Source of the DNA: Winogradskya consettensis
GTDB taxonomy: Bacteria; Actinomycetota; Actinomycetes; Mycobacteriales; Micromonosporaceae
Reading direction: 5' to 3'
NCBI RefSeq assembly: GCF_018332715.1
Contig: NZ_BOQP01000040.1
Location: 1 to 64,000 of the forward strand
Length of the DNA stretch: 64,000 nucleotides
Part shown: positions 29,903 to 32,750 of the stretch, one piece after another
Numbering within the stretch: the first letter of the stretch is position 1
Layout of the letters: every line of letters starts with the position of its first letter
Translations under genes and position numbers: made by a program
Notes under the pieces: generated by a model
The model's database searches: none
What the model saw: only the letters and a program-made list of their open reading frames with translations
What the model was told of the DNA's origin: nothing

Positions 29903-30591
29903 AAGGCGCGCCCGTGCCCCGATTCCTCCGCGACCCCGACCACGGCCCGCTACCCGGCCTCCTTCTGCTGCTCACCCTGACCACCGGAATGGTCGACGCG
30001 GTCACGATCATCCGGCTGGGCAAAGTCTTCACGGCGAACATGACCGGTAACACGGTCTTCATCGGCCTGGCCGCCGCTGGGGTGCCGGGGTTCGCGTTGT
30101 GGGGATCATTGCTGTCGCTGTCATGCTTCGCGCTCGGGGTCGCTCTGGGCGGCCTGGTCGCCCGGCGCGCCGCAAACCGGGCGCACATGCTGCGCAACAC
30201 GACGGCGTGCCAGGTCCTACTCCTGCTTGCTGCGACCCTGCTGTCCCTGACCTCCGTGACGCACTACCTGTTGCTGGCGCTGTGCGCCCTGACCTTCGGC
30301 ATCCAGAACGCAGCGGTGAACGTCCTCGAAGTCCCCGACCTGACCACCTCAGTCCTCACCCGAACCCTCACCGCTCTGATCGTCAACGCCCACCACGCCC
30401 CCGCACCAGTCACCCTGCGCCGCCTCCTGTCAGTCCTCTGCATCTTTACGGGCACACTGATCGGCGCCCTGCTCGTACTCCATACGAGCGTCGCCGCGAC
30501 GCTCACCACAGCGGCCATCACCCAAACAGCGGTCACGATCCTGGTGACGCTGTCCAACCGCCGCCCGGCAAATTGGCAACGCGTGTCATGA
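29899..30591 (+). CDS. YoaK/DUF1275 family membrane protein
   Basis: A 230-residue membrane protein with six predicted helices and the DUF1275 signatures TTGMVDAVTIIRLGKVFTANMTGNTVFIGLA, AARRAANRAHMLRN and LCALTFGIQNAAVNVLEVPDLTTSVLTRTLTAL. The function of the family is unknown. The GTG at 29899 overlaps the mntH stop by 4 bases, so expression is coupled to Mn uptake, a clue that it may act in metal or cation homeostasis (inference). The last residues are slightly irregular but the frame is intact. Confidence 0.88.
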   Translation: MKGAPVPRFLRDPDHGPLPGLLLLLTLTTGMVDAVTIIRLGKVFTANMTGNTVFIGLAAAGVPGFALWGSLLSLSCFALGVALGGLVARRAANRAHMLRNTTACQVLLLLAATLLSLTSVTHYLLLALCALTFGIQNAAVNVLEVPDLTTSVLTRTLTALIVNAHHAPAPVTLRRLLSVLCIFTGTLIGALLVLHTSVAATLTTAAITQTAVTILVTLSNRRPANWQRVS

Positions 30592-30628: not shown

Positions 30629-31402
30629 TCATGCTCGGGGCAATTCGCCCGCTACGCGATCTACTACCCCTTCGAGCCGTCCGACGTCGTTCCATCTGTC
30701 GATATGGCGCATGATCCCGGGAAGACGCTCGGGCTTCAGACCGGTGTGCAGAAGGAGGCAAAGCGTGGTCACATAGAACATACTCTCCGCGAGCCAGAGC
30801 AGGTCGGCGCCATCAAACTTCCGTTGTGCCTCGTCAAGGTGCGTGAGAGAGTTCCGGGCCTTCTTGACGGCGGTCACCCAACGGCCGACATCGCCACCGA
30901 CAAGGAAGTAGGCAAGATCCCCCAGTTCAGCCGCCAGGTCCCGCAATCTTCGATCAAGATCGAAATCATTTGCGTGAGCCATGACGCTGTTGAACCACTT
31001 GTAATGGTCAGGCGAAACGAGCTGCTCCCGGACAGCACGTCTCAGTCGGTCAAATTTCTTCTTCGGCATGTGCTCGCCTTTACCGACGAGAGCCCGATGG
31101 AGACCCTCCCGCAACCGCTCGATCACGACCGTGCGTAACTCCGGCGAGCGTTCGACCGCGAACAGTTTCGGCCACCCCCGGGCTGCCGCCGCGGCGGTGC
31201 CGGCGGCCACCGCCCGGTAACCGGCCCGGCCGCCGTGCCGGGCGACCTCCCGCGACACGATCGACGGGTCCCGGCCGATCCGCACACCGATTTCCTTATA
31301 CAGCAAGCCTTCCGCCATTCCGCGGGAGATCTCTTCACGGTCGATCGACGTCAGCATCACACGCACGGCGGGCATCCTGTCCCACCGAACCAGCAAGATC
31401 AA
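30629..31402 (-). pseudogene. IS30 transposase N-terminus fused in frame to ApeA-type HEPN domain
   Basis: A 257-codon chimera. Residues 11-100 are an IS30-family transposase N-terminus: LTSIDREEISRGMAEGLLYKEIGVRIGRDPSIVSREVARHGGRAGYRAVAA, an HTH. Catalytic DDE parts are absent. From about residue 104 the sequence is unrelated: a helical domain with RRLRDLAAELGDLAYFL and VKKARNSLTHLD, where R183-x4-H188 matches the Rx4-6H motif of HEPN ribonucleases, as in the C-terminal domain of ApeA abortive-infection proteins. The next frame upstream on this strand encodes an ApeA-like N-terminal domain, so I read this as an apeA gene broken by an IS30 insertion and deletion. The fused frame is open and could still be translated. 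Confidence 0.65.
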
Positions 31403-31405
31403 ATG

Positions 31406-31780
31406 CTACGACCGACTGAATCTGCCAGCTTCTTGGTTGACCCAGGGAGCAGCATCACGCAGCCGAACGATGACAGACTCGAATTCAGTTTCCTCATCGG
31501 TCGCGAAGTGGCCGCCGATCAGGAATGAATTCGGTCGATATTTTCTCCGGGCAGACCAGATGCAATCAATGAGCGTAACCGGCTGGAGCACTTCGCCGTC
31601 GTTGATGACACCGAGGATCCGGCCCCGGACCCCGCCGTCCAACTCGTGCTCTTGCCCGCTCGGCAGCCTTTCGATGAGCGAGTCAGCCAGCGTGAGGGAG
31701 GTTCCTTCGACAGGGTCGAACACAAGGCGGCCATCCGCCTGACTCCGTGCGGACCCGGAAGCCAAATTCTCCGATTGCAT
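31406..31780 (-). pseudogene. ApeA-like N-terminal domain fragment
   Basis: About 125 codons resemble the N-terminal beta domain of ApeA-type anti-phage proteins: DGRLVFDPVEGTSLTLADSL, RGRILGVINDGEVLQPVTLIDCIW, YRPNSFLIGGHFATDEETEFESVIVRLRDAAPWVNQ. The frame ends at TAG 31406-31408, right where IS30-derived sequence begins. The frame is open upstream to 32017 but those codons lack protein character and would overlap the divergent acetyltransferase start, so I place the start near ATG 31780. Base composition is less G+C-rich than neighbouring genes, as in many defence genes. Together with 30629-31402 it represents one disrupted gene. Confidence 0.55.
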
Positions 31781-32003
31781 CAAGCGCCTGCATTTCGCCG
31801 ATGCTATCTCCGGGATGACGACGGTAAAACCACGTTTCGAGTGACACGGCCGATGCGCCGAGTCGTTCTCACGTATCGCAGCAGATCTACAGGCGCCGCA
31901 GGCGACGGGGAGCTCAAGGGTCGGCCGGATGTCCTGACCGTGTCCGATGTGCGAGGGAGCAAGGCGGGTGACCCGGAGCGGGCGAGGCTGCCATCCTGAC
32001 GGC

Positions 32004-32750
32004 ATGGATCTCGACATCGCGCCTCTGGATGGCCGGATGGGGTTGTGGGAACAGCTCAGCGGCTACTGGCCCACGTTCGTGACCAATGATCCGACCGGGG
32101 CGCTGTACTACCGGCATTTCGCGGAGATCTGGCCGGAGTTCACGTTGCTGGCGGTGGATCGGGCGACCGGGGAGCCCGTGGCCAAGGCGCACTCGGTGCC
32201 GCTCTCCTTCACCGGAGACATCGGCGACATCGGCGACGGGCTGCCGGAGAACGGCTGGGACTGGGCGATTCGCTCGGCGGCCCTGGACCACATGGGCAGT
32301 GTGAAGCCCACGATCGTGTCCGCGTTGGAAATCATGGTGCGGCCCGATGTGCGCGGTAGCGGGTTGTCCGGGCTGATGCTGGGTGCGATGCGGGAGAACG
32401 CGGGCCGGCTGGGCTTCAAGGATCTGGTTGCCCCGGTGCGGCCCAGCGGGAAGCATGCTCAGATCGACAAGTCCATCGATGAGTACGCGTACGAGACGCG
32501 CGCCGACGGCCTCCCGATCGATCCGTGGCTGCGGGTGCATGTGCGGGCCGGCGGCACCATTCTGAACGTGGCGCACAGCAGCATGGTGGTGGCCGGTTCC
32601 CTGAAGCAGTGGCGGGAGTGGACCGGGTTGCCGTTCGACCGGACCGGGCCGGTGGTGGTGCCCGAGGCGCTGACCGCAGTGCACTGTGACGTGGAGGAGG
32701 ATCACGCCGTGTACGTGGAGCCGAACGTCTGGGTCCACCACCGGATCTGA
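32004..32750 (+). CDS. GNAT-like N-acetyltransferase
   Basis: A 248-residue protein with the acetyl-CoA site of GNAT enzymes: ALEIMVRPDVRGSGLSGLMLGAMRENAGRLGFKDLVAPVRPSGK, in which V-R-P-x-x-R-G-S-G-L is the pyrophosphate-binding loop. LLAVDRATGEPVAKAHSVPLSF forms the preceding strands. Related actinobacterial proteins are annotated only as acetyltransferases. Substrate unknown. ATG 32004 is chosen because the frame upstream overlaps the divergent ApeA-like region. A 22-bp tandem repeat begins in its last codons. Confidence 0.75.
   Translation: MDLDIAPLDGRMGLWEQLSGYWPTFVTNDPTGALYYRHFAEIWPEFTLLAVDRATGEPVAKAHSVPLSFTGDIGDIGDGLPENGWDWAIRSAALDHMGSVKPTIVSALEIMVRPDVRGSGLSGLMLGAMRENAGRLGFKDLVAPVRPSGKHAQIDKSIDEYAYETRADGLPIDPWLRVHVRAGGTILNVAHSSMVVAGSLKQWREWTGLPFDRTGPVVVPEALTAVHCDVEEDHAVYVEPNVWVHHRI

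Follow-up and report, generated by a model that had tools for sequence, protein, structure and literature searches.

Two open frames on the minus strand of the 64,000 nt stretch of Winogradskya consettensis DNA analyzed here (the window) carry, in serial order, an ApeA N-terminal part, the left end of an IS30-family element, and an ApeA HEPN domain. The question raised is whether this is the wreck of an anti-phage gene or a chimeric protein, IS30 helix-turn-helix (HTH) plus HEPN, that is made and retained. We conclude that the locus is very probably a pseudogene of ApeA, produced by an IS30 insertion and a subsequent deletion. The genome that carries it appears to belong to the Actinoplanes group.

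In the portion of a HEPN survey that deals with the family, ApeA-NTD1 is described as a domain of ~300 aa that is rich in strands and occurs fused to the Apea HEPN; for Abi proteins in general, the survey proposes that the N-terminal domains meet viral targets or restrain the toxin domain (PMC3710099). One table of a review lists ApeA under HEPN as PF18735 (PMC10952713); the match obtained here is to PF18739. The reference list of a 2026 preprint includes work titled deoxydinucleotides activate ApeA (PMC13405049). By extension from the family, an intact ApeA would act as an infection-triggered HEPN ribonuclease under the control of its N-terminal domain.

Layout of the locus

The first frame extends over 31780..31406, within a longer open frame (32017..31406), and the second over 31402..30629. 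The initial annotation placed both frames correctly and read the first as an ApeA-type N-terminal domain and the second as a single 257-codon frame joining an IS30 transposase HTH to a HEPN part with the motif RNSLTH. Pfam agrees on the domains. ApeA_NTD1 (PF18862), searched with the minus-strand translation 31828..31406, matches with E 2.7e-9 (37.4 bits, cut-off 25.5) over profile positions 16–117 of 271; nothing in the window matches profile positions 118–271. In the 257-codon frame, HTH_38 is matched at residues 17–56 (E 1.2e-8, profile 5–44 of 44) and HEPN_Apea (PF18739) at residues 99–225 (E 4.6e-17, profile 8–135 of 136). The HEPN motif is defined as R-x4-6-H. RNSLTH is present in the frame, and the relatives in genomes G046 and G027 have RNNLTH. 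Of the PADLOC models, those for PDC-S58 hit both parts and those for Cas13-ApeA hit the HEPN part. When solved structures were compared by sequence, no meaningful match was found (best E 0.24). The features are collected in Table 1.

Table 1. Features of the ApeA–IS30 locus, in window coordinates.
Feature	Position	Strand	Evidence
ApeA N-terminal domain remnant (ApeA_NTD1)	31437..31793	-	PF18862, E 2.7e-9; 70% DNA identity to G046
IS30-family left end: terminal repeat and transposase codons 1 to ~98, with HTH	31110..31426	-	DNA identity to IS30 copies; HTH_38
ApeA C-terminal part with HEPN, RNSLTH	30629..31109	-	PF18739; 70% DNA identity to G046 across 362 nt, no gaps
Chimeric open frame, 257 codons, IS30 HTH and ApeA HEPN	30629..31402	-	Translation, Pfam
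TAG stop closing the N-terminal frame, inside the IS30 left end	31406..31408	-	Translation, IS30 comparison

The locus thus resembles ApeA, a single-gene anti-phage system (PDC-S58 or Cas13-ApeA), in that both domains score above the Pfam cut-offs, stand in the usual order, and keep RN-x3-H. It differs in that NTD1 ends at profile position 117, the native start is out of frame, and IS30 sequence lies between the domains, so that they do not form one protein. That is, instead of a full N-terminal domain and a HEPN in a single polypeptide, there is an NTD1 remnant in a different frame, closed by the stop at 31408.

The IS30 part is recognizable at the DNA level. Over ~312 bp it is 87% and 85% identical to IS30 copies in two other genomes (G048 and G025, respectively) and 81% identical to a copy in its own genome, likeness that, judged from the sequences, lies far beyond chance. 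The piece is 317 bp long and begins at 31426 with a slightly altered left repeat; the end repeats were compared by eye with those of the three copies just mentioned. Similarity stops at ~31110, inside the transposase gene, and therefore the right part of the element, ~731 bp, is absent. Only the left terminal repeat was found in the window, with ApeA sequence past the junction, and Pfam found HTH_38 in the fragment and no rve catalytic domain. The fragment would thus be unable to move by itself.

The copy in the same genome (G000:C21, L002, 1496–2543) is an apparently intact IS30-family element of ~1048 bp, with GGCGAATTC at both ends (by eye) and with both HTH_38 and an rve domain. The window fragment shares with it the left terminal repeat, the first ~98 transposase codons, and HTH_38 but lacks the right end and the rve domain. 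At only 81% identity, this copy is not the parent of the fragment.

Comparison with an intact ApeA and the loss of sequence

An intact relative in the same genus, G046:C65, has one 489-aa frame in which NTD1 (profile 3–262 of 271) and HEPN_Apea (1–134 of 136) are both nearly complete. Its alignment with the window, at 70% DNA identity, flanks the IS30 piece and covers query positions 36–392 and 720–1081. The spacing between the aligned blocks is 594 nt in G046 vs 327 nt in the window, nearly all of the latter being IS30, and the spacing in G027 equals that in G046 to within 2 nt. When the IS30 boundary is taken at 31426, ~584 nt of ApeA are missing relative to G046. These alignments support the initial proposal that an ApeA gene was broken by IS30 and then suffered a deletion.

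That proposal is strengthened by damage at the other end of the gene, where two additional frame changes are found in the N-terminal part. ATG 31793 is the native start of ApeA: in the alignments it coincides with the ATG opening the conserved part in G046 and G027. The ATG at 31780, taken as the start in the initial annotation, sits instead in the shifted frame. Relative to both G046 and G027, single-base gaps near 31763 and near 31735 shift the frame. With two frame changes between 31793 and ~31730, reading from the native start stops after 36 codons. What remains of the N-terminal frame no longer contains the conserved start segment (GEFWLP in G046 and G027, GTFWLP in G184, GHFWFP in G022). 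Further single gaps in these alignments occur in cancelling pairs vs G046, and may be alignment noise; one extra gap vs G027 belongs to that relative's own broken frame. The start-region changes point, as read from the alignments, to decay independent of the IS30 event.

The following course of events would account for the arrangement. Originally, a genome of the Actinoplanes group would have carried ApeA as a single-gene anti-phage system. Into this gene, at 31426/31427, an IS30-family element would have inserted, placing its left repeat there. A later deletion would have taken ~731 of the ~1048 bp of IS30 plus ~584 nt of ApeA, i.e., the rest of the N-terminal domain; the sizes come from the comparison, and from them we infer a single step of ~1.3 kb in all. 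The new joint, at ~31110/31109, would have left the HEPN part in frame with the transposase start. The frame is indeed kept across this joint, which a random joint would achieve in 1/3 of cases. The two small frame changes close to the native start are a separate matter; they have put what remained of the N-terminal domain out of the ATG frame. Translation of the fused frame, if any, would likely begin at the IS30 transposase ATG near 31371 and not at TTG 31402.

Since most of the ApeA N-terminal domain is lost, the locus is most likely without a working defence, a prediction made from its domain content. If that domain is the sensor or the restraint, its loss would also remove control over the HEPN domain. 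One set of observations stands against the pseudogene: over the 362 nt aligned to G046 the HEPN part is free of gaps, it contains no stop, RNSLTH is kept, and the 257-codon frame is open, which is also how a retained protein would look. Many frames of similar length that overlap other genes are open in this G+C-rich DNA, however, and so the openness of the frame says little.

ApeA in the genus and the surroundings of the locus

Across the 67 genus genomes, HEPN_Apea is found at 13 places in 11 genomes and ApeA_NTD1 at 18 places in 13 genomes, with the window included in both counts. The open frames at the HEPN places were scanned with Pfam at E up to 0.001 (at G014:C35, 662 codons of a 778-codon frame). 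NTD1 is in frame at nine of the 13 HEPN_Apea places; the four at which it is absent are those in G027, G065, G014:C136, and the window. HTH_38 is joined to HEPN_Apea in the window alone, 1 of 13 places.

The ApeA of G027 (L026, G027:C5, region 282302–283544) is itself broken, the NTD shifting frame twice before the HEPN. As in the window, its HEPN lies in a frame apart from most of the NTD (L026 and L082, frames of 230 aa, the one with the HEPN, and 278 aa). Unlike the window, it is broken by frame changes, with no IS30 piece between NTD and HEPN. At G065:C117 (11053–12367) and G014:C136 (2310–3018; L083, L105, L092, and L110 for the two places), HEPN_Apea occurs without an in-frame NTD1 and with an NTD1 match nearby. 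These two loci are perhaps further decayed copies of ApeA.

An unoccupied version of the site was sought through the neighbouring genes. The gene at 31947–32750, which we take to be acetyltransferase-like, has good relatives in the genus, with a match in 29 of the 67 genomes, its own included. At the nine of these loci that were compared, no other window gene was matched within ~1.5 kb. On the other side, the gene at 29911–30591, presumably a DUF1275-like membrane protein, adjoins the remnant and is matched in 4 of the 67 genomes, its own included (E up to 1e-20); the relatives outside its own genome are distant, with 39–40% identity. Its presence in so few genomes marks this as a patchy neighbourhood within the genus. 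Beyond ApeA itself, the G046 and G027 loci, taken to at most ~1.5 kb on each side, have no match in the window. Thus, with no flank shared in either the neighbour-gene or the G046 and G027 comparisons, no empty site was found.

Could the fused frame be a protein?

The principal competitor of the pseudogene is a domesticated fusion, in which the IS30 HTH would bind DNA, e.g., the IS30 end repeats, and bring the HEPN ribonuclease within reach of nascent transcripts, or of IS or phage DNA entering the cell; a low-level growth inhibitor would be a variant. We regard it as very unlikely. In its favour are the single open frame, the HTH_38 match (5–44 of 44), the near-complete HEPN_Apea, and the retained catalytic motif, together with the contrast between a gap-free HEPN alignment and an N-terminal part with two frame changes. 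Against it, the greater part of the ApeA N-terminal domain has been lost, and the distribution of the junction and the substitution pattern bear on it as follows.

In none of the collections searched does a listed match cross the junction. The matches listed for the family come from 299 other genomes (300 with its own); none is junction-spanning, and any full-length junction match would rank at the top of that 300-genome list. The same junction was not found by a DNA search of the 67 genus genomes. In the genome-contig collection, nine loci from 32 stretches were matched, none past query residue 118 and none across the junction. The plasmid and phage collections yielded no match to the HTH–HEPN junction. 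In viral contigs a single locus was matched, over residues 6–99, i.e., the IS30 part, without spanning the junction, and no match to the N-terminal part was confirmed there. A search of the paper collection used here found no report of IS30 fused to HEPN. The initial annotation had raised the domesticated fusion as its alternative, and the idea gains no support from these searches.

The substitution pattern does not single out the fused frame either. In the HEPN part, differences found only in the window number 15, 15, and 17 by codon position, vs 18, 9, and 33 for G046 and 20, 15, and 38 for G027, with columns omitted that did not map or in which the three sequences are all different. The third-position share of unique differences is 17/47 in the window vs 71/133 in the two relatives (Fisher p 0.06); the corresponding test for the NTD part downstream of the frame changes gives p 0.13. 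Taken at face value, the raw counts tend towards relaxed constraint, a tendency that speaks, if at all, against domestication. A branch-omega model of four taxa (the window, G046, G027, and G184) and 155 codons, with G022 aligned and unused, detects no departure of the window branch from the others (free vs one omega, p 0.55–0.59), its synonymous branch lengths being saturated and the G184 branch at its bound. An omega of 1 over the whole window branch is rejected under three tree shapes (p 5e-5 to 5e-4). This rejection stands against the pseudogene, although the branch also spans time before the fusion, probably for the larger part of its length. Such test results are expected if the fusion is young relative to the divergence of the relatives, and they are compatible with a kept fusion.

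A stronger form of the idea, which we consider more doubtful still, is that the in-frame IS30 HTH–HEPN protein is made and kept, the transposase head steering or dimerizing the ApeA ribonuclease. Within this form, the protein would be a new DNA-addressed RNase, acting, for example, at sites of transcription of IS30 end repeats. Production of the fused protein would mean a new architecture, in which the DNA binding of a transposase is coupled to a HEPN ribonuclease.

It is scarcely credible that the locus is a split but working ApeA, with an N-terminal fragment (from ATG 31780) and a HEPN fragment cooperating as two proteins. No stop interrupts the shifted N-terminal frame between ATG 31780 and its end at 31408, and the fused frame follows close behind, but over half of the N-terminal domain is absent (no match to profile positions 118–271) and the frame changes have altered its opening segment. 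Finally, an assembly artefact joining IS30 and ApeA sequence has a negligible probability: the genome is a draft of 112 contigs and IS copies are a usual source of misjoins, but the best other IS30 match in the genome is only 81% identical, so that no near-identical copy able to cause a misjoin was found, and the right junction lies inside the transposase and not at a repeat end.

Taken as an ApeA pseudogene, the locus adds one more defence gene lost to an insertion sequence and a deletion, and as such it matters little. For surveys of the family, annotation by HEPN_Apea plus PADLOC could count a dead ApeA here.
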